This document shows positions 1 to 16,147 of a stretch of 64,000 nucleotides of DNA, one piece after another. Each line of letters begins with the position of its first letter. The first letter of the stretch is position 1. The notes under the pieces were generated by a model. The model searched no databases. It worked only from the letters and a program-made list of their open reading frames with translations, and was not told the DNA's origin. The position numbers were made by a program, and so were the translations under genes. Location: positions 62,001-126,000 of the forward strand of contig NZ_JAPZSV010000010.1 of NCBI RefSeq assembly GCF_027532185.1, in the 5' to 3' direction. This DNA comes from Hylemonella sp. Its GTDB lineage: Bacteria > Pseudomonadota > Gammaproteobacteria > Burkholderiales > Burkholderiaceae_C.

Positions 1-1
1 G

Positions 2-1096
2 GTGGTGGGCCAGCTGCACTCCTCCACGGGAACGATGGCGATCTCCGAGACGGGCTCGATCCAGGCCGAGCAGCTGGCCATCGACCAGATCAACGCCATG
101 GGCGGCATCCTGGGCCGCAAGATCCGCGTGATCAAGGAGGACGGTGCCTCCGACTGGCCGACCTTCGCCGAGAAGTCCAAGAAGCTGCTGATCAACGACA
201 AGGTGGCCGCCGTCTTCGGCTGCTGGACCAGCGCCTCGCGCAAGGCCGTGCTGCCGGTGTTCGAGAAGGAAAACGGCCTGCTCTACTACCCCACCTTCTA
301 CGAAGGCCTGGAGCAATCCAAGAACGTGATCTACACGGGCCAGGAAGCCACGCAGCAGATCATCTACGGTCTGGACTGGGGCGCCAAGGAGAAGAAGGCC
401 AAGACCTTCTTCCTCGTGGGCTCGGACTACATCTGGCCGCGCACCTCGATGAAGATCGCGCGCAAGCACATCGAGTCCGTGGGCAAGCTGGGCAAGGTGG
501 TCGGCGAGGAGTACTACCCGCTGGGCAACACCAACTTCAACTCGCTGATCAACAAGATCAAGGTCGCCAAGCCGGACTGCATCTTCGCGGCCGTGGTGGG
601 TGGCTCCAACGTGGCCTTCTACAAGCAGCTCAAGGCCGCTGGCATCACCGGCGCCAAGCAGTTCCTGCTGACGCTCTCCGTCACCGAGGACGAGATGACC
701 GGTGTGGGCGGTGACAACTTCGAGGGCTTCTACAGCTCGATGAAGTACTTCCAGTCGCTGGACAACGAGAACAACAAGAAGTTCGTCGCGGCCTTCAAGG
801 CCAAGTACGGCAAGGACGCGGTGATCGGCGACGTGACACAGGCCGGCTACCTGGGCCCCTGGCTGTGGAAGGCCGCGGTCGAGAAGGCCGGCAGCTTCGA
901 CGTGGACAAGGTCGTGGCCGCCTCGCCCGGCATCGAGCTCAAGACCGCGCCCGAGGGCTACGTCAAGGTGCACCAGAACCACCACCTCTGGAGCAAGTCG
1001 CGCATCGCCGTGGGCAATAAGGATGGCACCTTCAAGGTGGTGGCCGAGTCGCCCAACCTGATCGAGCCCGATCCCTTCCCCAAGGGCTACCAGTAA
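2..1096 (+). CDS. urtA: Urea/short-chain amide ABC transporter substrate-binding protein (5' truncated by window edge)
   Basis: Translation reads as the UrtA/FmdD periplasmic binding protein family (GQLHSSTGTMAISETGS...LAIDQINAMGGILGRKI); followed by matching permease and ATPase genes. Confidence 0.93.
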   Translation: MVGQLHSSTGTMAISETGSIQAEQLAIDQINAMGGILGRKIRVIKEDGASDWPTFAEKSKKLLINDKVAAVFGCWTSASRKAVLPVFEKENGLLYYPTFYEGLEQSKNVIYTGQEATQQIIYGLDWGAKEKKAKTFFLVGSDYIWPRTSMKIARKHIESVGKLGKVVGEEYYPLGNTNFNSLINKIKVAKPDCIFAAVVGGSNVAFYKQLKAAGITGAKQFLLTLSVTEDEMTGVGGDNFEGFYSSMKYFQSLDNENNKKFVAAFKAKYGKDAVIGDVTQAGYLGPWLWKAAVEKAGSFDVDKVVAASPGIELKTAPEGYVKVHQNHHLWSKSRIAVGNKDGTFKVVAESPNLIEPDPFPKGYQ

Positions 1097-1103
1097 GCAG
1101 GTT

Positions 1104-1134
1104 CGAAGCCCCTCTCCTCGCGAGAGGGGCTTCG
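1104..1134 (+). promoter_or_regulatory. Intra-operon GC-rich hairpin between urtA and urtB
   Basis: 13-bp perfect stem cgaagcccctctc/gagaggggcttcg with 5-nt loop; no T-tract follows. Confidence 0.6.
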
Positions 1135-1200
1135 GGGTGGCGGCCAGGGCACAAGGGACGGCCGCCACCTCTTTCTTCAGACAGACAGGCAGGTGACGCC

Positions 1201-2115
1201 ATGGAATTCTCCGAAATACTCAACATCACCCTGATGCAGGGCTTTGCCGGACTGAGCCTGTTCTCGGTGCTGCTGCTCATGGGCCTGGGCCTGGCCATCA
1301 TCTTCGGCCAGATGGGCGTGATCAACATGGCGCATGGCGAGTTCATGACCATCGGCGCCTACACCATCTTCCTGTTCTCCACGCTGACAGAGAAGTACGC
1401 GCCGGGGCTCATGTCCTATTACTTCCTGCCGGCCATCGGCGTGGCCTTCATCCTGGCCTTCATCGCTGGCTGGCTGGTGGAGTGGGGGCTGATCCGCTTT
1501 CTCTACAAGCGCCCGCTGGACACGCTGCTGGCCACCTGGGGCCTGAGCCTGGCCATCCAGCAGATCTTCCGGTCGGCCATCGGCCCCAAGGAAGTGAGCC
1601 CCACGCTGCCCGACTGGCTCATGGGCTCCTGGGCACCGCAGGAGGGCCTGGACATCCCGATCAACGGCCTCTTCGTGCTGGCGCTGACCCTGGTGGTCAC
1701 CGGCGGCGTGCTGCTGGCGCTGTACAAGAGCCGCTGGGGCCTGCGTGTGCGCGCCACGGTGAGCAACCGCACCATGGCCAACGCCATCGGCATCAACACC
1801 AAAAAGACCGACCGCCTGACCTTTGCCATCGGCTGCGGCATCGCGGGGGTGGCGGGCGCGGCGTTCACCACCATCGGCTCCACGGGCCCGACCAGCGGCT
1901 CGCTCTACATCGTCGACTCCTTCCTGGTCGTGACCTTTGGCGGCGCGGCCAGCCTGCTGGGCACCGTGGCCTCGGCCTTCGGCATCGCGCAGACGCAGTC
2001 CATCAGCGAGTTCTTCATGACCGGCTCCATGGCCAAGGTGCTGACCCTATCGCTGATCGTCGTGATCCTGATGATCCGTCCGCAGGGCCTGTTCGCCAGC
2101 AAGGTGCGCCGCTGA
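1201..2115 (+). CDS. urtB: Urea ABC transporter permease UrtB
   Basis: LivH/UrtB-like membrane protein (INMAHGEFMTIGAYT); operon context. Confidence 0.93.
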   Translation: MEFSEILNITLMQGFAGLSLFSVLLLMGLGLAIIFGQMGVINMAHGEFMTIGAYTIFLFSTLTEKYAPGLMSYYFLPAIGVAFILAFIAGWLVEWGLIRFLYKRPLDTLLATWGLSLAIQQIFRSAIGPKEVSPTLPDWLMGSWAPQEGLDIPINGLFVLALTLVVTGGVLLALYKSRWGLRVRATVSNRTMANAIGINTKKTDRLTFAIGCGIAGVAGAAFTTIGSTGPTSGSLYIVDSFLVVTFGGAASLLGTVASAFGIAQTQSISEFFMTGSMAKVLTLSLIVVILMIRPQGLFASKVRR

Positions 2116-2143
2116 TCCCGTTTCTCACTTCCGGAGTCCCACC

Positions 2144-3337
2144 ATGAACAGCTTCAAAACGTGGATCAGCAGCAAAGGCCTGGGCAGCGTGCTCATCCTG
2201 GCCGTCGTGCTGCTGGTCGTCTTCCCGCTGCTCTTCGACATCTTCCGTCTCAACCTCGTCGGCAAGTACCTGACCTACGGCTTCGTCGCCCTGGGCCTGG
2301 TCATGCTCTGGGGCTGGGGCGGCGTGCTCAGCCTGGGCCAGGGCGTGTTCTTCGGCCTGGGCGGCTACGCCATGGCCATGTTCCTCAAGCTCGAGGCCAG
2401 CGATCCGGTCAGCACCAAGATCCAGTCGACCCCGGGCATTCCGGACTTCATGGACTGGAACCAGCTCACGGCCCTGCCGCTGTGGTGGGAGCCTTTCAAC
2501 CACCTGCCGTTTGCGCTGTTCGCTGTGGTGGCCCTCCCCACCCTGCTGGCCTTCATCGTCAGCTACGCCATGTTCAAGCGCCGCGTGGGTGGCGTGTACT
2601 TCGCGATCATCACCCAGGCCGTGGCGCTGATCCTCACCGTGCTCATCATCGGCCAGCAAGGCTACACGGGCGGCGTCAACGGCATGACCGACCTCAAGAC
2701 CCTGCTGGGCTGGGACATCCGCACCGACAGCGCCAAGTACATCCTCTACTACCTGTGCAGCTTCATGCTGCTGGGCACCATCGTGCTCTGCCTGTGGATC
2801 CAGAAGAGCAAGCTGGGCACCCTGCTGCTGGCCATGCGCGACAAGGAAGACCGGGTGCGCTTCTCAGGCTACGACGTGGCCATGTTCAAGGTCTTCGTGT
2901 TCTGTCTGGCGGCGGCACTCTCAGGCATCGGCGGCGCGCTGTTCACGCTGCAGGTGGGCTTCATGTCGCCCTCCTTCGTGGGCATCGTGCCCTCGATCGA
3001 GATGGTGATCTTCGCTGCCGTGGGCGGGCGCATGAGCCTGGTGGGTGCGGTCTACGGCGCCCTGCTCGTGAACTTCGGCAAGACCTACTTCTCCGAGAGC
3101 TTCCCCGACCTCTGGCTCTTCCTCATGGCAGCGCTCTTCATCGGCGTGACCATGGCCTTCCCCGAAGGTCTGGCCGGGCTGTGGTCGCAGAAGGTCGTGC
3201 CCTGGTGGCAACGCAAGCAAGCAGAACGTGCGGCGATCCGCGCCGCCGTGGCACGCGACCAGGCCACCCCTGGCGACGCGGCCCCGCCGCCCAGCACGCC
3301 CGCCGGCCCGGGCCAGCTCAGCGGCCAGAGCGCCTGA
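2144..3337 (+). CDS. urtC: Urea ABC transporter permease UrtC
   Basis: LivM/UrtC-like (LSLGQGVFFGLGGYAMAMFLKL); operon context. Confidence 0.93.
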   Translation: MNSFKTWISSKGLGSVLILAVVLLVVFPLLFDIFRLNLVGKYLTYGFVALGLVMLWGWGGVLSLGQGVFFGLGGYAMAMFLKLEASDPVSTKIQSTPGIPDFMDWNQLTALPLWWEPFNHLPFALFAVVALPTLLAFIVSYAMFKRRVGGVYFAIITQAVALILTVLIIGQQGYTGGVNGMTDLKTLLGWDIRTDSAKYILYYLCSFMLLGTIVLCLWIQKSKLGTLLLAMRDKEDRVRFSGYDVAMFKVFVFCLAAALSGIGGALFTLQVGFMSPSFVGIVPSIEMVIFAAVGGRMSLVGAVYGALLVNFGKTYFSESFPDLWLFLMAALFIGVTMAFPEGLAGLWSQKVVPWWQRKQAERAAIRAAVARDQATPGDAAPPPSTPAGPGQLSGQSA

Positions 3338-3360
3338 CCCCCGACACCCTGGAGCCCACC

Positions 3361-4104
3361 ATGAGCAACACCGACTTCGCCCTGGCCGTTGAAGACCTCA
3401 CGGTCTCCTTCGACGGCTTCAAGGCCATCGACAACCTGACGCTGTACATCGACAAGAACGAGCTGCGCGTGATCATTGGCCCCAACGGCGCGGGCAAGAC
3501 CACGCTGCTGGACCTGATCTGCGGCAAGACCAAGGCCAGCGGCGGCAGCATCAAGTTCAAGAACGAGGAGCTGACCCGACTCGACGAGCACATCCGGGTG
3601 CGCAAAGGCATCGGCCGCAAGTTCCAGACGCCGTCCATCTACGAGAACCTCTCCGTCTTCCAGAACCTGGAGGTGTCCTACCCCACGGGCCGCTCGGTCT
3701 TCGGCGCCCTGGGTTTCAAGTGCACCGACGAGGTCAAGGCGCGCGTGCAGGTGGTGGCCGAGGAGATCGGCCTGGCCGAGGTTCTGGACAAGGAGGCCGG
3801 CCTGCTGTCCCACGGGCAGAAGCAGTGGCTGGAGATCGGCATGCTGCTGATGCAGGACCCCGAGCTGCTGATGCTGGACGAACCCATCGCTGGCATGAGC
3901 GCGCGCGAGCGTGAGCTGACCGCCGAGCTGCTCAAGCGCATCTGCAAGAACCGCTCGGTGATCGTGATCGAGCACGACATGGAGTTCGTCAAGCAGATCG
4001 CGCACAAGGTCACGGTGATGCACCAGGGAAAGATCCTCGCCGAAGGCTCGATGGAAACGGTGCAAGCGGACCCCAAGGTCATCGACGTGTACCTCGGCCA
4101 CTGA
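3361..4104 (+). CDS. urtD: Urea ABC transporter ATP-binding protein UrtD
   Basis: Walker A GPNGAGKTT, DEPIAGM; ATG at 3361 within the longer ORF 2161..4104. Confidence 0.93.
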   Translation: MSNTDFALAVEDLTVSFDGFKAIDNLTLYIDKNELRVIIGPNGAGKTTLLDLICGKTKASGGSIKFKNEELTRLDEHIRVRKGIGRKFQTPSIYENLSVFQNLEVSYPTGRSVFGALGFKCTDEVKARVQVVAEEIGLAEVLDKEAGLLSHGQKQWLEIGMLLMQDPELLMLDEPIAGMSARERELTAELLKRICKNRSVIVIEHDMEFVKQIAHKVTVMHQGKILAEGSMETVQADPKVIDVYLGH

Positions 4105-4121
4105 TTTCAAAGGAGTAAGAC

Positions 4122-4811
4122 ATGCTCAAAGTCACCGATATGTACACGGCCTACGGCCAGAGCGAAGCCCTGCACGGCATCTCCTTTGAAGGCAACAAGA
4201 ACGAGACGGTGGCCATCATGGGCCGCAACGGCATGGGCAAGACCACGCTGTTCAAGAGCCTCATGGGGGTGCTGCCGCTCAAGTCCGGGCAGATCCTGGT
4301 CGACGGCCAGGACGTCTCGAAGGACGAAAGCTATCGCCGCGTGGCCAAGGGCATCGCCTACGTGCCCCAGGGCCGCATGATCTTCCCCACGCTGACCGTG
4401 GAAGAGAACATCCAGACCGGCCTGGAGAACGCTAAACACAAGCAGATCCCCGAAGAGATCTATGCCCTCTTCCCCGTGCTCTGGGACATGCGCCGGCGCA
4501 AGGGCGGCAACCTCTCCGGTGGGCAGCAGCAGCAGCTGGCCATCGCCCGTGCGCTGGTGACCAATCCCAAGGTGCTGCTGCTCGACGAGCCTACCGAGGG
4601 CATTCAGCCTTCGATCATCAAGGACATCGCCAAGGCGCTCAACGAGATCCGCAAGCTGCGCGAGATCACCATCGTGGTCTCCGAGCAGGTGCTGTCCTTC
4701 GCGATGGATGTAGCCGACCGCCTCTTCGTCATCGAAGGTGGGCGCCTGGTGCACGAGACCGCGCGCGCCCAGACCGACGTGCAGCGCATCAAGTCCTATC
4801 TCTCGGTCTGA
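4122..4811 (+). CDS. urtE: Urea ABC transporter ATP-binding protein UrtE
   Basis: Walker A GRNGMGKTT, LSGGQQQQLAIARAL, LDEPTEGIQPSII. Confidence 0.93.
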   Translation: MLKVTDMYTAYGQSEALHGISFEGNKNETVAIMGRNGMGKTTLFKSLMGVLPLKSGQILVDGQDVSKDESYRRVAKGIAYVPQGRMIFPTLTVEENIQTGLENAKHKQIPEEIYALFPVLWDMRRRKGGNLSGGQQQQLAIARALVTNPKVLLLDEPTEGIQPSIIKDIAKALNEIRKLREITIVVSEQVLSFAMDVADRLFVIEGGRLVHETARAQTDVQRIKSYLSV

Positions 4812-4855
4812 CCCATTTACCCACTTCACCCACCCCACCCACCAGGAGCAACGTC

Positions 4856-6088
4856 ATGGCTGAAACCCTAATCAAAGTCGACCTCACCAAGCCCGCACCG
4901 AGCAACGAGATGGTGCACAACCGCTGGCACCCGGACATCCCGATCGCCGTCTGGGTCAAGCCCGGTGACGACTTCATCCTGGAAACCTACGACTGGACCG
5001 GTGGCTATATTAAGAACAACGACAGCGCCGACGATGTGCGCGACATCGACCTGTCCACCGTGCACTACCTCTCGGGCCCCGTGGGCGTGAAGGGCGCCGA
5101 GCCCGGCGACCTGCTGGTGGTGGACCTGCTGGACATCGGCGCCAAGCAGGACAGCCAGTGGGGCTTCAACGGCTTCTTCAGCAAGCAGAACGGCGGCGGC
5201 TTCCTGACCGACCACTTCCCTCTGGCACAGAAGTCCATCTGGGACTTCAATGGTATGTTCACCAAGAGCCGCCATGTGCCCGGCGTGGAATACGCCGGGC
5301 TCATCCACCCCGGCCTGATCGGCTGCCTGCCCGACAAGAAGATGCTGGCCGAGTGGAACAAGCGCGAGGCCGAGCTGATCGCCACCGACCCGAACCGCGT
5401 GCCCGGCCTCGCGAACCCGCCCTTTGCCGCCACGGCGCACTGCGGCAAGGCCCAGGGTGAAGTCGCCAAGAAGGTGGCCACCGAAGGCGCGCGCACCGTG
5501 CCCCCACGTGAACACGGCGGCAACTGCGACATCAAGGACCTGTCGCGCGGCTCGCGCATCTTCTTCCCGGTCTATGTGGACGGCGGTGGCCTCAGCGTGG
5601 GTGACCTGCACTTCAGCCAGGGCGACGGCGAAATCACCTTCTGCGGCGCCATCGAGATGGCCGGCTGGGTGCACATGCGTGTCAACCTCATCAAGGGCGG
5701 CGTGGCCAAGTACGGCATCAAGAACCCGATCTTCAAGCCCAGCCCCATCACGCCCAACTACAAGGACTACCTGATCTTCGAAGGCGTCTCCGTCGACGAG
5801 CAAGGCAAGCAGCACTATCTGGACGTCACGGTGGCCTACCGCCAGGCCTGCCTGAACGCCATCGAGTACCTGAAGAAGTTCGGCTACAGCGGCGCCCAGG
5901 CCTATTCGATCCTGGGTACGGCGCCGGTGCAGGGCCACATCAGCGGCGTGGTGGACGTGCCCAACGCCTGCGCCACGCTCTGGCTGCCGACCGAGATCTT
6001 CGACTTCGACATCAACCCCACGGCGGCTGGTCCGGTGAAGTTCATCGACGGCAGCATCCAGATGCCGATCTCGCCCGACAAGAAGTGA
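4856..6088 (+). CDS. fmdA: Formamidase (FmdA/AmdA acetamidase-formamidase family)
   Basis: Full-length 410-aa ORF with FmdA-like N-terminus (HNRWHPDIPIAVWVKPGDDFILETYDWTGG) and GHISGVVDVPNACATLWLP; followed by fmdB. Confidence 0.93.
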   Translation: MAETLIKVDLTKPAPSNEMVHNRWHPDIPIAVWVKPGDDFILETYDWTGGYIKNNDSADDVRDIDLSTVHYLSGPVGVKGAEPGDLLVVDLLDIGAKQDSQWGFNGFFSKQNGGGFLTDHFPLAQKSIWDFNGMFTKSRHVPGVEYAGLIHPGLIGCLPDKKMLAEWNKREAELIATDPNRVPGLANPPFAATAHCGKAQGEVAKKVATEGARTVPPREHGGNCDIKDLSRGSRIFFPVYVDGGGLSVGDLHFSQGDGEITFCGAIEMAGWVHMRVNLIKGGVAKYGIKNPIFKPSPITPNYKDYLIFEGVSVDEQGKQHYLDVTVAYRQACLNAIEYLKKFGYSGAQAYSILGTAPVQGHISGVVDVPNACATLWLPTEIFDFDINPTAAGPVKFIDGSIQMPISPDKK

Positions 6089-6101
6089 GCAGGAGCCCCG
6101 C

Positions 6102-6452
6102 ATGCCGACCTATGACTACGACTGCCCGGACTGCGGGGGCTTCGAGGCGCTGCGCCCGGTATCGCAGCGCGACGAGCCCTGCAGCTGCCCGGACTGCGGC
6201 ACCGTGAGCACGCGCGTGTTCGTGGCCGGGCCGCGCCTGGCCTGCATGAGCAGCGACACGCGCAAGGCCTACGAGACCAATGAGCGTGCCTCTCATGCGC
6301 CGCGGTCCTCGCGGGATGGGTCGTATGGGCGGCTCAGGCATCCGGCGGGTTGCGGGTGTTGCTCTACGAGTGGCAAACGGGGTTCTACCGTGACGGCGGC
6401 TGATGGGAGCAAGTCGTTTGCGGGGAAGAGGCCTTGGATGATTAGTCACTGA
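6102..6452 (+). CDS. fmdB: FmdB-family zinc-ribbon protein
   Basis: MPTYDYDCPDCGGFEALRP...CPDCG zinc ribbon directly downstream of fmdA. Confidence 0.88.
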   Translation: MPTYDYDCPDCGGFEALRPVSQRDEPCSCPDCGTVSTRVFVAGPRLACMSSDTRKAYETNERASHAPRSSRDGSYGRLRHPAGCGCCSTSGKRGSTVTAADGSKSFAGKRPWMISH

Positions 6453-6476
6453 TTTTCTTAGTGCTGGCGTTTTTGT

Positions 6477-6868
6477 ATGGATGCTTTTCTTTCCACCCCC
6501 TATCCCCCCCCGCCGCCTTCCCACCCTCGCCAGGGCGGGAAGGGGGAGCCGGATTTTGTTTCGTCGCGCCGGCTACGCTTCTACGAGGGTGAGGTTGCGG
6601 CCTGCTTCTTCTCTCCGAGATTTCAGGGCTACGGTCGTAGTAAAGGGCTCGGTCGCTGGCGCGCAGCTGCCAGCCGGGGGCTCGCCTACCCCGATGCGGT
6701 CTCTACGACCGCTGGCCTGAAATGCAGGCAATCCAAACGCGGTGGCGACGCCACCCTCGTAGAAGCGTATCCATCCACCCACCACCAAATCGGGCTCCCC
6801 TTCCCGCCCTGGCGAGGGTGGGAAGGGGCGGGGGGGATAGGGGGTGGAGAAGAACAACCTCTATCCAC
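6477..6868. repeat. Large imperfect palindrome (MITE-like inverted repeat)
   Basis: Left arm ccaccccctatccccccc..cttcccaccctcgccagggcgggaagggg..agcc..tacgcttctacgagggtg recurs as reverse complement in right arm (6742-6850); centre near 6665 (gctggcgcgcagctgccagc). Confidence 0.85.
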
Positions 6869-6916
6869 TTAGCCCACAGCAAGAAACGACCCCAACACTT
6901 CCTAGGAGTACCAACC

Positions 6917-7954
6917 ATGATCCACGGCGATATCTCCAGCAGCCACGACACCGTCGGCGTCGCAGTCGTCAACTACAAGATGCCCCGCCTGCACACCAAG
7001 GCCGAAGTCCTGGCCAACGCGCGCAAGATCGCCGACATGGTGGTCGGCATGAAACAGGGCCTGCCCGGCATGGACCTGGTGATCTTCCCCGAGTACAGCA
7101 CCCACGGCATCATGTACGACGCCAAGGAGATGTACGAGACCGCCGCCGCCGTACCCGGCGAGGAGACGGCTATCTTCTCCGAGGCCTGCCGCAAGGCCAA
7201 GGTCTGGGGCGTGTTCTCGCTCACGGGTGAGCGCCACGAAGAGCACCCCAACAAGGCGCCCTACAACACGCTGATCCTCATGAATGACCAGGGCGAGATC
7301 GTGCAGAAGTACCGCAAGATCATGCCCTGGGTGCCTATCGAGGGCTGGTACCCGGGCAACTGCACCTATGTCTCTGACGGGCCCAAGGGGCTCAAGGTCA
7401 GCCTCATCATCTGCGACGACGGCAACTACCCCGAGATCTGGCGCGACTGCGCCATGAAGGGCGCCGAGCTCATCGTGCGCTGCCAGGGCTACATGTACCC
7501 GGCCAAGGACCAGCAGGTGCTCATGGCCAAGGCCATGGCCTGGGCCAACAACACCTATGTCGCCGTCGCCAATGCGGCCGGCTGGGACGGGGTCTACAGC
7601 TACTTCGGTCACAGCGCCATCGTCGGTTTTGACGGCCGCACCCTGGGCGAATGCGGGGAAGAGGAATACGGCATCCAGTACGCAGCCCTCTCCAAGAGCC
7701 TGATCCGCGACTTCCGCAAGAACGGCCAGAGCGAAAACCACCTCTTCAAGCTGGTGCACCGCGGCTACACGGGCAAGATCAATTCGGGCGAAGGTGATAC
7801 CGGCGTGGCCGCCTGCCCCTACGAGTTCTACGGCGAGTGGATCCGCGACCCCGAAGGCACGCGCAAGAAGGTGGAAGCTTTCACGCGCAGCACCGTGGGC
7901 ACGCCGGAATGCCCGATTGAAGGCATTCCGAACGCGCCCGCCGTCCACCGCTGA
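6917..7954 (+). CDS. amiE: Aliphatic amidase
   Basis: Near-continuous match to my recollection of AmiE ([29 protein letters not shown]); nitrilase triad contexts [26 protein letters not shown] at 6917 after an aggag-like RBS. Confidence 0.93.
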
Positions 7955-7963
7955 CGGACTATC

Positions 7964-8788
7964 GTGCAACGTGACCTGGACGCCGCCGACCCGCTGGCGG
8001 ACTATCGCGTGCGCACGTCGCCGTACTACCGGCCGGCGGCGCGCGAGGTGGCGCTCTACGAGCACGCCTACGACCACCGCCTGGCGCTGCTGCTCAAGGG
8101 TCCGACGGGCTGCGGCAAGACGCGCTTCATCGAGTACATGGCCTGGAAGCTGGGCCGACCGCTGATCACCCTGGCCTGCAATGAGGACATGACGGCGGCC
8201 GACCTCGTGGGCCGCTGGCTGCTCGACGAGCGTGGCACGGTCTGGCAGGACGGGCCGCTCACGCTGGCCGTGCGGCACGGTGCCATCTGCTACCTGGACG
8301 AGGTGGTGGAGGCGCGCCAGGACACCACGGTGGTCATCCATCCGCTGACCGACGCGCGTCGCCTGCTGCCGCTAGACCGCAAGGGCGAGCTGGTGCACGC
8401 CCACCCGGATTTCCAGCTGGTCGTGTCCTACAACCCGGGTTATCAGGGCCAGGCCAAGGAGCTCAAACCCTCCACGCGCCAGCGCTTCGCGGCCCTCGAC
8501 TTCGACTACCCGCCCGAGGATGTGGAGATCGAGATCGTCGCGCACGAAGCCGGCGTCACGCCGCACCTGGCCGCGCGGCTGGTGGGCCTGGCACGGCGCA
8601 CGCGCACGCTGCGCGAGCGCGGCCTGGCCGAGGGCGCCTCCACCCGCATGCTGATCTACGCAGCGACACTGATCCGTGACGGTGTCGACCCCCGCGATGC
8701 CTGCACGATGACGCTGACGAACGCCCTGACCGACGACCCCGACCTGGCCGCGGCGCTGCGCGATCTGGTCCATGCCAGCTTTGCCTGA
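7964..8788 (+). CDS. MoxR/CbbQ/NorQ-type AAA+ ATPase
   Basis: Walker A KGPTGCGKTRF, YLDEVVEAR Walker B, ITLACNEDMTAADLVGRW typical of the CbbQ/NirQ/NorQ group. Confidence 0.85.
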   Translation: MQRDLDAADPLADYRVRTSPYYRPAAREVALYEHAYDHRLALLLKGPTGCGKTRFIEYMAWKLGRPLITLACNEDMTAADLVGRWLLDERGTVWQDGPLTLAVRHGAICYLDEVVEARQDTTVVIHPLTDARRLLPLDRKGELVHAHPDFQLVVSYNPGYQGQAKELKPSTRQRFAALDFDYPPEDVEIEIVAHEAGVTPHLAARLVGLARRTRTLRERGLAEGASTRMLIYAATLIRDGVDPRDACTMTLTNALTDDPDLAAALRDLVHASFA

Positions 8789-10370
8789 GCCTCCCGCCGC
8801 ACTGACGCTCTTGCTGCAGGCGCTGAGCGCACGCCGGCTGACCCTGCAGACGCTGCCACCCGCTGGACCCGATCGGCCAGAGGTCCGCCCCATCCTGACC
8901 CCACAACACCTGCTGCTGCCCGCACGCGCGCCCGAGCTACAACGCGCCGCCGTGGCCCACGCCGCGGCCCATCTGCTGCACTCCGTCCCGTCTCAGCCCA
9001 CGGCCACGCTCAAACCCCTGGGCCTGGCCGTCGTGTCAGCGGTGGAGGACGCGCGGGTGGAGCAGCTGCTCGCAGGCCAGCTGCCTGGCGTGCGGGCCTG
9101 GTTCGATGCACCGCTACGCGACGCCCTCGACCCGCAGGGTCTGAGCGCCGCCGCCCTGCTCTCACGCCTGGACCTCGCCCTGCACGACGAGGACCACGCC
9201 GACGGCAACCATTGGGTGAACAAGGCGCGAACGCTGTTTGACGCGGCACGCCGCGCACACGGGCTGGAAGACGCCGCCGCCTTTCGCCGGCTCGCGAGCG
9301 TTCTGGCCCATGACCTGGGCCAGATGCGCGTGCGCTTCGAACCCCGCGCGTTCTGCGTGCCCTGCGCCTATCGCGACGACCACAGCTATCTCTGGAACCA
9401 TGGCGCGGCACGCGATGATGAGGCCCAGCCCCTGGAGCAGCCGCTCGCCACGCCCGGCGCCCCGCCGCGCGACAGCGACACCCGCCCCGCCCTGGAACCA
9501 GTGCGCATCCACCACTACCCCGAATGGGATGCGCGTAGCGGAGTGCTGCGGCGCGACTGGTGCACCTTGCACGATCACGGCACGCCGCCACCGACCAGCG
9601 ACGCCCCCGCGCAGCCACCACACCGGTCGCTGCCCCTGCATCGCCGCCAGGGCCTGGGGCGACGCCAGCGTCGCCAGCCCGAGGGGGTGCAGCTGGATCT
9701 GGACGCGCTGGTCGACGACGAAGTCCTCCGCCGCCTTCGGCTTGGCCCAAGTGGACGCGTCTTTCAACGCCCGGGCGTCGCGGCACCGGTGCTGAGCCTG
9801 CTGCTGCTGATCGACAGCTCGCAATCGACGGCCACCCACACCGGAACCGGCCCCAGCCTGCTGCAGCTCGAACAGGAGGCCGCGTTCCTACTGGCCCACG
9901 CGGCAGCCGACACCGGCAGCCGGCTGGCCATCCACGCCTTCAACTCGGACACCCGCGCCCGGGTGCACTACCGGCGCCTGCTGGACTTCGGCATGCGGCC
10001 CGAGGCCATGGCGCTGGCCCGCCTGCAGGCACTGCGCAGCGAGTACTCCACGCGTCTGGGCGCGGCGCTGCGTCATGCGGGCAGCGTGCTGGCCACCGAG
10101 GCCAGGACGCAGCGGGTATTGCTCGTGCTGACCGACGGCAGCCCCTCGGACGTGGACGTGCACGACCCCCACCATCTGGTCGAGGATGCACGCCACGCCG
10201 TGCTGCGACTCCGGGCCCAGGGTGTGGCGGTCCACGGCCTCGTGGTGGGCGAGGCTGCCGCCGATGATGCACGCCGCATCTTCGGGCCGGGACACTACCG
10301 CATCGCCCGCTCGGCCCTGCAGATCGCGCACCAGCTCACCGCATGGCACGCACAATTTGCAGGCAGATGA
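8772..10370 (+). CDS. VWA-domain protein (CbbO/NorD-like)
   Basis: C-terminal MIDAS DSSQS and LLVLTDGSPSDVD; overlaps preceding ATPase by 17 nt. Confidence 0.82.
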   Translation: MPALPEPPAALTLLLQALSARRLTLQTLPPAGPDRPEVRPILTPQHLLLPARAPELQRAAVAHAAAHLLHSVPSQPTATLKPLGLAVVSAVEDARVEQLLAGQLPGVRAWFDAPLRDALDPQGLSAAALLSRLDLALHDEDHADGNHWVNKARTLFDAARRAHGLEDAAAFRRLASVLAHDLGQMRVRFEPRAFCVPCAYRDDHSYLWNHGAARDDEAQPLEQPLATPGAPPRDSDTRPALEPVRIHHYPEWDARSGVLRRDWCTLHDHGTPPPTSDAPAQPPHRSLPLHRRQGLGRRQRRQPEGVQLDLDALVDDEVLRRLRLGPSGRVFQRPGVAAPVLSLLLLIDSSQSTATHTGTGPSLLQLEQEAAFLLAHAAADTGSRLAIHAFNSDTRARVHYRRLLDFGMRPEAMALARLQALRSEYSTRLGAALRHAGSVLATEARTQRVLLVLTDGSPSDVDVHDPHHLVEDARHAVLRLRAQGVAVHGLVVGEAAADDARRIFGPGHYRIARSALQIAHQLTAWHAQFAGR

Positions 10371-10477
10371 TCGATGCAAGCCCCAAACGCGTGCATATCA
10401 ATCAGATCCCGAAACATTCCGCACCAGAAAAAGGCGTCATCGATCCCCCCCCGGGCCAGACCACCCGTGCGGCACAA

Positions 10478-10492
10478 GGCACGTCTATTGCA
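10478..10492 (+). promoter_or_regulatory. Candidate sigma-54 (-24/-12) promoter upstream of ureA
   Basis: GGCACGtctaTTGCA with exact GG-N10-GC spacing (GG 10478-10479, GC 10490-10491); matches TGGCACG-N4-TTGCW except the first T. Confidence 0.7.
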
Positions 10493-10528
10493 TGGCAGAG
10501 CCTCAAACCCGAACCGACAGAACACACC

Positions 10529-10678
10529 ATGGAACTCAAGCCCCGCATTCGGCCTGCCTTGGCGACCGCACGGGCTGATTGGGAAGCGACATGGAACTGA
10601 CTCCCCGCGCTCGGCCTGCCTTGGCGACCGCACGGGCTGATTTGGAAGCGATATGGAACTGACTCCCCGCGAAAAAGA
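10529..10678 (+). repeat. 62-bp tandem repeat (two full units plus start of a third) covering the ureA start region
   Basis: ATGGAACT at 10529, 10591 and 10653 (exact 62-bp period); units 1 and 2 share ...cggcctgccttggcgaccgcacgggctgatt-ggaagcga with about 7 differences; third copy is the ureA start itself. Confidence 0.95.
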
Positions 10679-10955
10679 CAAGCTGCTGATCTTCACCGCC
10701 GCCCTGTTAGCCGAACGGCGTATGGCGCGCGGGCTCAAGCTCAACTACCCTGAGGCCGTGGCCTTTCTGAGTGCCGCGGTGATGGAAGGTGCGCGCGACG
10801 GCAAGAGCGTGGCCCAGCTCATGAGCGAGGGCCGCAACCTGCTCAAGCGCAGCGACGTGATGGAGGGCGTGCCCGAGATGATTCCCGACATCCAGGTCGA
10901 AGCCACCTTCCCCGACGGCACCAAGCTCGTCACCGTGCACCAGCCCATCGCCTGA
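10653..10955 (+). CDS. ureA: Urease subunit gamma
   Basis: [37 protein letters not shown] canonical UreA. Confidence 0.97.
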
Positions 10956-10975
10956 ACACCTGCCAGACCTCTGCC

Positions 10976-11131
10976 ATGCGACCCGTCCTGCTCTGCCTTG
11001 TCCTGCTGCTGACCGCCGGCGCCGCCTGGGCCGGTCTGGGTTCCCTGCCGCGCCTGCCCCTGCGTGAGCTCGTGGGCCTGGCCTCTTTCGGCGCACTGGG
11101 TGGCATGCTGTACTGGCATCTGCGCAAGTGA
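10976..11131 (+). CDS. Small putative membrane/secreted protein (51 aa) in urease operon
   Basis: Read directly: MRPVLLCLVLLLTAGAAWAGLGSLPRLPLRELVGLASFGALGGMLYWHLRK*; signal-like N-terminus, second hydrophobic segment; co-oriented between ureA and ureB. Below the supplied ORF length cutoff. Confidence 0.6.
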   Translation: MRPVLLCLVLLLTAGAAWAGLGSLPRLPLRELVGLASFGALGGMLYWHLRK

Positions 11132-11156
11132 CCCCATTCCAACCGGAGACTTCGAC

Positions 11157-11327
11157 ATGAAACGACTGCTGTCACCCCTCATGGCCTGCGCCGCCCTGCT
11201 GCCCCTGCTGGCGCAGGCCCACGAGGGCCACGGCCTGATGGGCGCGCATTGGCACGCCACGGACGTGCTGGGCTTCATCGCCGTGGCCGTGATCGTGGGC
11301 GTGGCGATCTGGACGCTGCGCAAATAA
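11157..11327 (+). CDS. Small His-containing membrane protein (56 aa) in urease operon
   Basis: MKRLLSPLMACAALLPLLAQAHEGHGLMGAHWHATDVLGFIAVAVIVGVAIWTLRK*; predicted signal/TM plus His cluster; ATG internal to ORF 11064..11327. Confidence 0.7.
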   Translation: MKRLLSPLMACAALLPLLAQAHEGHGLMGAHWHATDVLGFIAVAVIVGVAIWTLRK

Positions 11328-11342
11328 GCCGGGGCAACCGCC

Positions 11343-11648
11343 ATGATTCCCGGTGAACTGCTGATCGACGACGGCGCGCACCCGCTCAACCCGGAGCGCC
11401 GTACGTACACGCTGGTGGTGAGAAACACCGCCGACCGGCCGATCCAGGTCGGCTCGCATTACCACTTTGCCGAGACCAATGGCGCGCTCGACTTCGACCG
11501 CAAGGCCGCACACGGCATGCGCCTGAACATCGCCAGCGGTACGGCCGTGCGCTTCGAGCCCGGCCAGCAACGCACCGTGGAGTTGGTGGACCTGGCCGGC
11601 GAACGCAAGGTCTACGGCTTTCGCGGCCTGGTCCAGGGAAAACTCTAA
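11343..11648 (+). CDS. ureB: Urease subunit beta
   Basis: [20 protein letters not shown]...SHYHFAETN canonical UreB. Confidence 0.96.
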
Positions 11649-11663
11649 ATAAGCGAAACGATC

Positions 11664-13382
<1,719 letters not shown>

Positions 13383-13389
13383 TCGCGGC

Positions 13390-14004
13390 ATGATCACCGT
13401 TTCCAAACTTCTGCCCCAGGGCCAGGGCCTGGCTCCTGTGCTCGTCAAGCGCGCCGCCATCGTCGAACTCGACTGGGACATACGACAGAAAAGCCGCTTT
13501 GCCGCAACCGACAGCGAGGACCGCGAGCTCGGCATCTTCCTGCCGCGCGGCACCGTGGTGCGCGGCGGCGATGTGCTGGTGGCCGAGGACGGCTCGCTGA
13601 TCCGCGTGGTCGCCGCACCCCAGGCCGTGCTGCGCATCACGGCCTGTGCCGAACACGGCTCGCCCTTCGATCTCACGCGCGCGGCCTACCACCTGGGCAA
13701 CCGCCACGTGCCCATCGAGCTCCAGCCCGACCACCTGAAGATCGAACCCGATCATGTGCTGGCCGACATGCTGCGCGCCATGCGCCTGACCGTGGTCGAG
13801 GCGCAGGAGGCTTTCGAACCCGAGGGCGGCGCCTACAGCGCAGGCGGACATCACCACGCTCATGGCCATGACCACACGCATGATCACGGCCACACGCACG
13901 ATCATGGACATGCGCACAAGCACGACCATGAACACGGCCCGGGCTGCGGGCACGATCACGACCATGGGCATGACCATGGACATGCGAACCAGCCTTCCCA
14001 CTGA
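13390..14004 (+). CDS. ureE: Urease nickel metallochaperone UreE with long His-rich tail
   Basis: UreE core plus C-terminal [53 protein letters not shown]. Confidence 0.95.
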
Positions 14005-14704
14005 GGCGGACGTCCCGCCCGCCACGCTGCAGCCCGCCAGCCTGCTGCAGCTGCTGTGGCTGGCCTCACCCGCACTGCCCGTGGGTGGCTTCTCGTATTC
14101 CGAAGGGCTGGAAGCGGCAGTGGATGCAGGCCATGTACGCGACGCGGACAGCGCGGCCCATTGGCTCACACAGCAGCTGCAGCTCACCCTCGCCCGCTCC
14201 GACCTCGCCGTGATCGCGCAGGCCCTGCGGGCCTGGCGCGCCGGTGACGCAGCGCGTGTGCATGCCCTCAACGACTGGCTGCTGCAGACGCGCGAGAGCG
14301 CTGAGCTGCGCCTGCAGACCGAGCAGATGGGCCGCTCGCTGCGCGAATGGCTGCGCAAGCTGCCACAGACCGATGCCGCCGTGCTGGACTTCGCCGCGGG
14401 CCTGGACCCGAGCTACCCCGTCATGTTTGCCCTCGCGGCTGCCGGCAGCGGTGCGCCCGAGCGCGACGTGCTGCTGGCCTACGCCTTCGGCTGGGCCGAG
14501 AACCTCACGCAGGCCGCGCTCAAGGCGGTGCCCCTGGGCCAGACCGCGGGCCAGCTCATCCTCTCGCGCCTGGCGGCCGAAATTCCCGCCGCTGTCGAAC
14601 ACGCGCTGGCCCTGCCCGACAGCGAGCGCCAGGCCTACAGCCCCATGCTGGCCATCCTGAGCAGCCGGCACGAAACCCAGTACTCACGACTGTTCCGCTC
14701 CTGA
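13982..14704 (+). CDS. ureF: Urease accessory protein UreF
   Basis: [27 protein letters not shown] canonical UreF; start chosen inside ORF 13862..14704, overlaps ureE 3' end. Confidence 0.93.
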
Positions 14705-14723
14705 GAGCGACAAGGACTGCACC

Positions 14724-15374
14724 ATGAACGCACCCGCCCTGCACCACATCCCGAACCGCAGCAAACCCCTGCCTCCCCTGCGCGTGGGCGTGGGCGGCCC
14801 GGTGGGTTCGGGCAAGACCACGCTGCTGGAGATGCTCTGCAAGGCCATGCGCGAGCAGTACGACCTGGTCGCCATCACCAACGACATCTACACCAAGGAA
14901 GACCAGCGCCTGCTCACGGTCAGCGGCGCGCTGCCGGCCGAGCGCATCATGGGCGTGGAAACGGGCGGCTGCCCGCACACCGCCATCCGCGAGGACTGCT
15001 CGATCAACCTCGAAGCCATCGACCGTATGCTCAAGGAGTTTCCGAACGCCGATGTGGTGTTTGTCGAATCCGGCGGCGACAACCTGGCCGCCACCTTCAG
15101 CCCCGAACTCAGCGACCTGACGATCTATGTGATCGACGTGGCCGCGGGCGAAAAGATCCCACGCAAGGGGGGGCCCGGCATCACCAAGAGCGACCTCTTT
15201 GTCATCAACAAGACCGACCTGGCCCCGCATGTGGGCGCCAACCTGGACGTCATGAAGGCCGACACCGAACGCATGCGCGGCGCCAAGCCCTTTGTGATGA
15301 CCAATCTCAAGACGCTCGCGGGTGTGGATGAGGTGGTGGCATTCATCGAGAAGCGGGGGCTGCTGAAGACCTGA
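14724..15374 (+). CDS. ureG: Urease accessory GTPase UreG
   Basis: [47 protein letters not shown] canonical UreG. Confidence 0.97.
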
Positions 15375-15387
15375 GGTCTTGGCGGCT

Positions 15388-15777
15388 TCAGGTCTGCACT
15401 TTCGCGCCCTGCTCCTTGAGCAGCTCCCGCAATACCGAACGGTGACAGTGCGCCTCGTCCTCGCAATAGCAGCCCACGGAGAAGCTGCTGTCTTTCGACA
15501 ACGCCGACAGCAAGGCCAGCGCCTGGGCAGCCTCGGGTGCGGCCATCTCCTTGCGGTAGCGCTTGACGAAAGCCGTCCACTGCGCTGGCGTCTCAGCCGC
15601 CTGGCCCAGCTTCATAGTCTCGACGCTGGGCGCGAGCACGGGGAACCAGACGTCGTACCAGTTCTGACGTGAAAACTCGCTCTTGGGCACACCGCGCGGC
15701 GGGCGCCGCACGGTGCCGATGCGCGTGCCTTCGTCGGGTGCGCGCGGGCTGCCGAGGCGGACGATGCGGATGCTCAT
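15388..15777 (-). CDS. DUF488 family protein
   Basis: VRRPPRGVPKSEFSRQNWYDVWFPVLAPS...YCEDEAHCHRSVLRELL, typical DUF488. Confidence 0.8.
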   Translation of the reverse strand: MSIRIVRLGSPRAPDEGTRIGTVRRPPRGVPKSEFSRQNWYDVWFPVLAPSVETMKLGQAAETPAQWTAFVKRYRKEMAAPEAAQALALLSALSKDSSFSVGCYCEDEAHCHRSVLRELLKEQGAKVQT

Positions 15778-15790
15778 GTTCGCTCCGCCA

Positions 15791-16147
15791 TCAAGCTGCA
15801 CGACGCAGCAGGGTACGGATGTCCTCCCGCCCGATCCAGCCGCGCCAGAAGCCCAAGGCCATGATGGCCGAGGCCAGCCCCATCATGGGCCATTCGGTAT
15901 GCACGGCATGCGTGGCCACGGCACCGATCATGAAGCAGCCCAGTCCTGCGGCCACCAGGGCCGTGAAACGTCCCCAGAGCAGCGCCAGCCCGCCCAGCAC
16001 CTCGATCACGCCGGTGAGGTACATGAACCAGAGCGGATAGCCCCAACGCGCAAACGCGGCCAGCTCGTACTCCAGGCTGGCGAGCTTCGCGAGGCCGGAG
16101 CCCAGGAAGACGATGAGCAGCAGCGCCGTGGGGATGGGGTACTTCAT
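15791..16147 (-). CDS. DoxX family membrane protein
   Basis: Four-TM small protein (GSGLAKLASLEYELAAFARWGYPLWFMYLTGVIEVLGGLALL). Confidence 0.75.
   Translation of the reverse strand: MKYPIPTALLLIVFLGSGLAKLASLEYELAAFARWGYPLWFMYLTGVIEVLGGLALLWGRFTALVAAGLGCFMIGAVATHAVHTEWPMMGLASAIMALGFWRGWIGREDIRTLLRRAA

Follow-up and report, generated by a model that had tools for sequence, protein, structure and literature searches.

Why is the start of a urease gene written three times in succession, and does the repetition do anything? In the window analyzed here, a stretch of 64,000 nucleotides from Hylemonella sp., the start of ureA (10653..10955, encoding the urease gamma subunit; Pfam Urease_gamma E = 2.6e-47) is reiterated at 10529, 10591 and 10653 by an exact 62-bp tandem repeat at 10528-10671. 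The sequence ATGGAACT is present at all three positions, and Tandem Repeats Finder reported 10528-10671 with a period of 62, 2.3 copies, 91% matches, zero indels and a score of 239, which confirms the triple start that an earlier note had read from the letters. The first two copies agree at 56 of 62 positions. The two 23-amino-acid ORFs noticed at the time (10529-10600 and 10591-10662) are as described, each with its TGA within the next ATGGAACTGA, and the purine-rich stretches said to precede copies 2 and 3 were found as gggaagcgac and tggaagcgat, respectively. We scanned 200 kb of the window genome and 200 kb of a relative for start codons with near-perfect upstream copies of themselves (at most one mismatch in 19). 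ureA was the sole case among 3604 candidate start codons in these 400 kb, which rules out a chance repeat. An upstream copy of the ureA start is called a mimic below; all features with coordinates in the leader lie on the + strand, as does ureA.

The repeat is located within genes for the use of urea and amides. Upstream of it the window carries urea transporter genes (1-4.8 kb, named from their sequences), a formamidase, a nitrilase-family amidase, a NorQ/CbbQ-type ATPase and a VWA protein, and after it follow ureA, ureB, ureC, ureE, ureF and ureG. The CbbQ/NorQ-type AAA ATPase and the VWA protein between the amidase and ureA (7964-10370) are unusual in a urea/amide operon and are possibly a metal or enzyme activation pair. 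The C-terminus of ureE (13849-13984) is a histidine-rich tandem repeat region overlapping a long ORF that runs on into ureF. ureD was not noticed beside the other urease genes at 1-16000.

A sigma54-type promoter box, AGGCACGTCTATTGCA (GG-N10-GC, 10477..10492), scores 14.5 of 15.5, ends 37 nt upstream of the first mimic and has a predicted transcript start near 10503. Boxes scoring at least 13 precede the first start in 81% of the element-bearing loci compared to 0.6% of shuffled sequences. According to a study of Burkholderia cenocepacia H111, the urease genes of that bacterium require NtrC and are among the shared sigma54 targets (PMC5491218). Because of this control and because a sigma54-type box precedes the array, the array probably forms part of the leader of a nitrogen-controlled mRNA, whose predicted start was placed from the position of the box. 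Some species of the window genus without the element (L010-L012) have a sigma54 box directly before ureA. In seven loci (L135, L230, L198, L199, L201, L232, and L138) the first mimic ATG is located only 12-16 nt after the -12 GC of the box, and the first mimic would therefore be nearly leaderless there.

To describe the distribution of the element we used a covariance model of the unit (R1, with a cut-off of E below 1e-4 in the family survey). The unit was found upstream of ureA in 28 of 401 genomes of the family, representing 17 genera. UreA itself is present in 308 of the 401, and approximately 9% of the ureA-bearing genomes carry the element. All family matches whose loci were read adjoin ureA directly upstream. 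In one of these loci (L207 of G285), leader-like units persist although ureA is an internally deleted remnant. Twelve of the 21 ureA-bearing species in the window genus carry one to three units and nine carry none, while 17 of 47 species carry the element in one further genus. The element is dispensable, since it is found in only about 9% of the ureA-bearing genomes of the family and is absent from nine of the 21 species in the window genus. Among 399 genomes sampled from the order, none of the covariance model matches outside the family was located at ureA. A dispersed mobile repeat is ruled out, as genus pattern matches (at most three mismatches) were found at ureA only, bar one weak match with three mismatches elsewhere.

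We aligned 78 units from 54 genomes. Leaving out one irregular genome, 36 genomes have one unit, 13 have two, two have three, one has four and one has five. The repeat period ranges from 58 to 77 bp among the carriers, one of which is Simplicispira metamorpha (L067). Many bacteria related to Comamonas carry one to five extra ureA starts before the first urease gene. Two loci from different genera, L230 (G849) and L135 (G261), share a near-identical leader, a frameshifted mimic (ATGGAACCGCCCCCGCG) and the nearly leaderless promoter spacing, which suggests that the urease region was exchanged between their lineages.

The units share a common anatomy. The mimic ATGGAACTNACNC is followed by a left arm CNCGNG at codons 5-7, usually by TT, and then by an inner hairpin and the six-base right arm CNCGNG; a spacer and a purine-rich, weak ribosome site (GAGTGAAACGA or GAAGCGAAGCGA) lead to the next start. 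Compensatory variants of the inner hairpin include CGGCC/GGCCG, CAGCC/GGCTG, CGACC/GGTCG, CAACC/GGTTG, CTGCC/GGCAG, and CAAGC/GCTTG, and its pairing survives changes in loop length. Plain RNAalifold gave only four pairs on the first alignment, and the structure was therefore tested by counts of named pairs. The inner hairpin has 18 compensatory double-change cells, and its covariation score exceeds those of all 500 shuffles and all slid controls. For the full hairpin model we counted 82 double-change cells; none of 500 shuffles scored as high and the slid controls were far lower. Automatic hairpin finding mis-set the arms in some units, while curated and model-based arms gave the same result.

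The right arm can pair with two different starts. Pairing back to the mimic was found in 83.7% of cells with a covariation of 0.228, whereas pairing forward to ureA codons 5-7 was found in 91.7% of cells with a covariation of 0.344, compared to 0.119 upon shuffling, and with 47 double-change cells. Both pairings exceed shuffles and the next start is the better partner, even with the arm alignment fitted to the mimic pairing and so biased against the forward result. The right arm hence has two mutually exclusive pairings, as is expected of an attenuator. The two pairing positions that vary are the third bases of ureA codons 5 and 6, where the changes are synonymous. The right arm matches these in 48 and 49 of the 54 genomes, respectively (shuffled means about 22), and at least seven pair types covary. 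At 36 informative sites, where the mimic differs from the next start, the right arm fits only the next start in 32 cases and only the mimic in three. Parsimony on a tree built from the downstream region placed 14 double changes on the same branches, all ending complementary, where about three were expected. Relatedness therefore does not explain the match. Among 75 ureA genes without the element, a right-arm-like complement was found upstream in four against 3.1 expected, and it can be rejected as a general feature of ureA leaders.

A folding model gave a pairing probability of 0.38 for the right arm with the mimic and 0.12 with ureA in naked RNA. When a ribosome was masked over the mimic start, the predicted pairing of the right arm with ureA increased to 0.50. 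The ureA ribosome site and AUG were mostly unpaired in either state, and the stem between the right arm and ureA may for that reason not block initiation. The covariation indicates that the right-arm pairing is conserved; that ribosomes would open it is suggested by modelling.

The window units are poor examples of this anatomy. Unit 1 (10529..10590, R1 match E = 2.1e-10) has its left arm, CCCGCA, at 10542..10547 as positioned from alignments A1 and A3. Its inner hairpin (10550..10568, CGGCC...GACCG), placed by inner-stem covariation in the relatives, is degraded by a C-A mismatch, and its right arm CACGGG (10569..10574) can form five of six pairs with codons 5-7 of the start that follows. Unit 2 (10591..10652, E = 8.0e-13) has its left arm, CCCGCG, at 10604..10609 (alignment A3) and an inner hairpin at 10612..10630, placed by alignment and by covariation in the relatives, with the same CGGCC...GACCG stem and one C-A mismatch. 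The right arm of unit 2, CACGGG (10631..10636), forms five of six pairs with ureA codons 5-7 (CCCGCG, 10666..10671), the codons whose wobble positions covary with the right arm across the carriers. The candidate ribosome site of ureA is the purine-rich TGGAAGCGA at 10643..10651, with an anti-SD duplex of about -3.3 kcal/mol compared to 0.1 for the first mimic. A stable fold within the window leader was rejected, as it was no better than that of shuffled sequence (z = +1.7). Any function may be fading in the window species.

Across the carriers the mimic mostly retains a start codon. The first unit starts with ATG in 44 of 53 cases and with CTG or TTG in four more. Compared to the ureA of the same genome, the mimic differs at 44.5% of third positions and at 10.5% of first or second positions. 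Change at positions 1 and 2 of mimic codons 3-6 was estimated at approximately 0.34 of the neutral expectation (95% range 0.24-0.46), a figure that takes account of third-position changes in both the mimic and ureA and of which array turnover could mimic a part. The wobble positions of the mimic vary freely. Anti-SD pairing is usually poor at the first mimic, which weakens the case for its putative translation, and modest at the ureA start. The uORF crosses the right arm in frame 0 in 53 of 54 genomes. In 50 of 54 its stop falls between -30 and +25 nt relative to the next start, so that the upstream ORF ends near or overlaps the downstream start as in coupled ORFs; as the control frame +2 gives 44 of 54, this is weak evidence for the frame. 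Where the unit adjoining ureA lacks an ATG, the ureA pairing is perfect over the inner five pairs in two of seven cases compared to 37 of 46 with an ATG (p = 0.01). This suggests that mimic and stem work together, and general decay could give the same pattern.

Of the uORF peptide only MELTPR is retained and later residues vary with the hairpin and the frame, and neither a conserved stalling or regulatory peptide nor a regulatory codon run was found. A conserved peptide beyond codon 6 was rejected on account of frameshifts and hairpin-driven change. A fused N-terminal extension of UreA was also rejected, as stops precede ureA in the in-frame cases listed.

The earlier proposal of a start/stop-overlap cascade into ureA does not hold in general. 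The cascade is confined to the 62-bp version; unit lengths across species occupy all three frames, the exact position of the uORF stop is not conserved, and elsewhere the stops range from some 30 nt upstream of the following start to positions within it. What survives of that proposal is the leader device as such, in favor of which are a unit kept in 17 genera, the constraint on mimic codons 3-6 and a hairpin arm that covaries with ureA.

We consider it about an even chance (roughly 0.5) that the repeat belongs to a family-wide, cis-acting RNA element for translational control in nitrogen-regulated urease leaders, in which ribosomes on the uORF and the alternative pairing of the right arm would set access to the ureA start. 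The anatomy, the conservation, the covariation and the promoter box were observed; the direction of control, the part played by ribosomes and any signal are inferred. Each unit would provide a copy of the ureA start as a short uORF with a usually poor ribosome site, then a hairpin and the six-base right arm, and would lead via a weak ribosome site to the next start. This arm would pair either back to mimic codons 5-7, giving a compact hairpin, or forward to those of the next start and finally to those of ureA, where a stem at +14 to +19 would place the ureA ribosome site and AUG in its loop. A ribosome initiating on the mimic would cover the backward partner and favor the forward stem, and initiation at ureA would be hindered. 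Upon translating further through the hairpin and the right arm, the same ribosome would open the forward stem and terminate near ureA, making ureA translation dependent on translation of the leader. A leader in which the ribosome sets the partner of the right arm is favored by the increase in predicted forward pairing upon ribosome masking. More tentatively, and with less confidence than in control as such, the units may represent a class of RNA switch in which the start of a gene is duplicated upstream as a decoy and one hairpin arm picks the decoy or the real start depending on ribosome position, the choice being written into synonymous codons of the gene under control and repeated in tandem, thereby setting urease output in nitrogen-limited bacteria.

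Much of the variation in copy number could arise with no function at all, if start and hairpin were once duplicated and copies were gained and lost by slippage or recombination as in a neutral, hairpin-driven minisatellite. Turnover between one and five copies, near-identical species-specific copies in some arrays (G277 and G221), the truncated remains of older units ahead of some arrays, the patchy presence in the window genus and the degraded copy in the window all agree with this. It accounts for the copy turnover but not for the forward covariation, since correlated substitutions extend beyond the hairpin of the unit itself: the right arm changes in step with synonymous substitutions in ureA codons 5 and 6, through its seven or more pair types, and fits ureA rather than the adjacent mimic, although correction templated by the hairpin should favor the adjacent arm. 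Mimic codons 3-6 are moreover constrained, and we find such a functionless origin rather unlikely. For the same reason slippage alone is insufficient, as it does not predict that the key pairing is maintained by paired changes. The suggestion of a recent slippage frozen upstream of ureA was too narrow; the copy number varies, but the element is old.

A serious rival, since the ureA ribosome site is largely open in both predicted states, is a purely start-presenting role, where the hairpin and the stem with ureA would keep the ureA ribosome site and AUG accessible within a loop, insulated from the G + C-rich sequence, and the mimic would be a scar of the founding duplication. No pairing is better supported than that between the right arm and ureA, and the predictions leave the start mostly unpaired in the loop, in agreement with such a role. 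A scar should however not keep its ATG in 44 of 53 first units or have constrained codons, nor should the ureA pairing be worse where the mimic start is lost, and we regard this role as unlikely on balance. Units that start close to the predicted transcript start, several with the first mimic ATG 12-16 nt from the -12 GC, could instead shield the urease mRNA from decay as 5'-end hairpins. This is improbable, because protection does not require pairing with ureA codons and some arrays lie away from the 5' end. The literal repetition of the start region could also provide extra or decoy sites for a regulator protein, for CsrA at the repeated AUGGA motifs, which by inspection include a GGA motif, or for an antisense RNA against the ureA start. 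The GGA is imposed by the UreA N-terminus, however, and freely varying mimic wobble positions and covarying stems are unexpected for sequence-specific binding of what is a putative factor only; we find this very improbable.

The proposed leader control resembles known systems in part. Translational coupling by RNA unfolding or by termination-reinitiation has been reviewed (PMC12548453), and here too an upstream ORF traverses a paired element and stops near a downstream start, so that its translation could open the structure. The upstream ORF is, however, no gene in itself and reiterates the first codons of the downstream gene, the structure targets codons 5-7 and not the ribosome site, and the units iterate one to five times. 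With uORF attenuators of the erm and topAI types it shares a short uORF, alternative pairings that compete for one arm and ribosome position as the presumed switch, but not a conserved stalling peptide, since after codon 6 the peptide is dictated by the hairpin and is subject to frameshifts. By analogy, the element would act like translational coupling or attenuation, except that its leader ORF reproduces the start of the regulated gene itself. The 5'ureB-sRNA of Helicobacter pylori (Rfam RF02514) also controls a urease operon at the RNA level, but it is a separate antisense RNA inside the urease coding sequence, and its Rfam matches here are outside the leader. Matches to RF02514 (5_ureB_sRNA) above threshold were found on the antisense strand of the downstream urease genes in L193, L138 and L146, where the model probably follows conserved urease coding sequence. 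The NtrC/sigma54 control of urease in B. cenocepacia H111 provides a similar transcriptional layer with a sigma54-type box before ureA, whereas neither a leader repeat nor an RNA element is described in the accessible part of that study (PMC5491218). Rfam covariance models gave no match in the window leader or in the leaders of six relatives, and the element was not found in the open-access literature searched on urease leaders, coupling and RNA motifs.

Altogether, the repeat has the appearance of an RNA control element not described before, and not of a single copying error. Thanks to the covariation a direct test is simple, as one or two synonymous bases in ureA can be set against one or two bases in the leader, and the carriers and their relatives offer a natural series of zero to five units of a possible translational control device. 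If the proposed control is true, pairing would tie synonymous codons 5 and 6 in the gene of a conserved protein to its leader, which is unusual, and urease, which is central to how soil and freshwater bacteria use nitrogen and release ammonia, would have an undescribed layer of RNA control.
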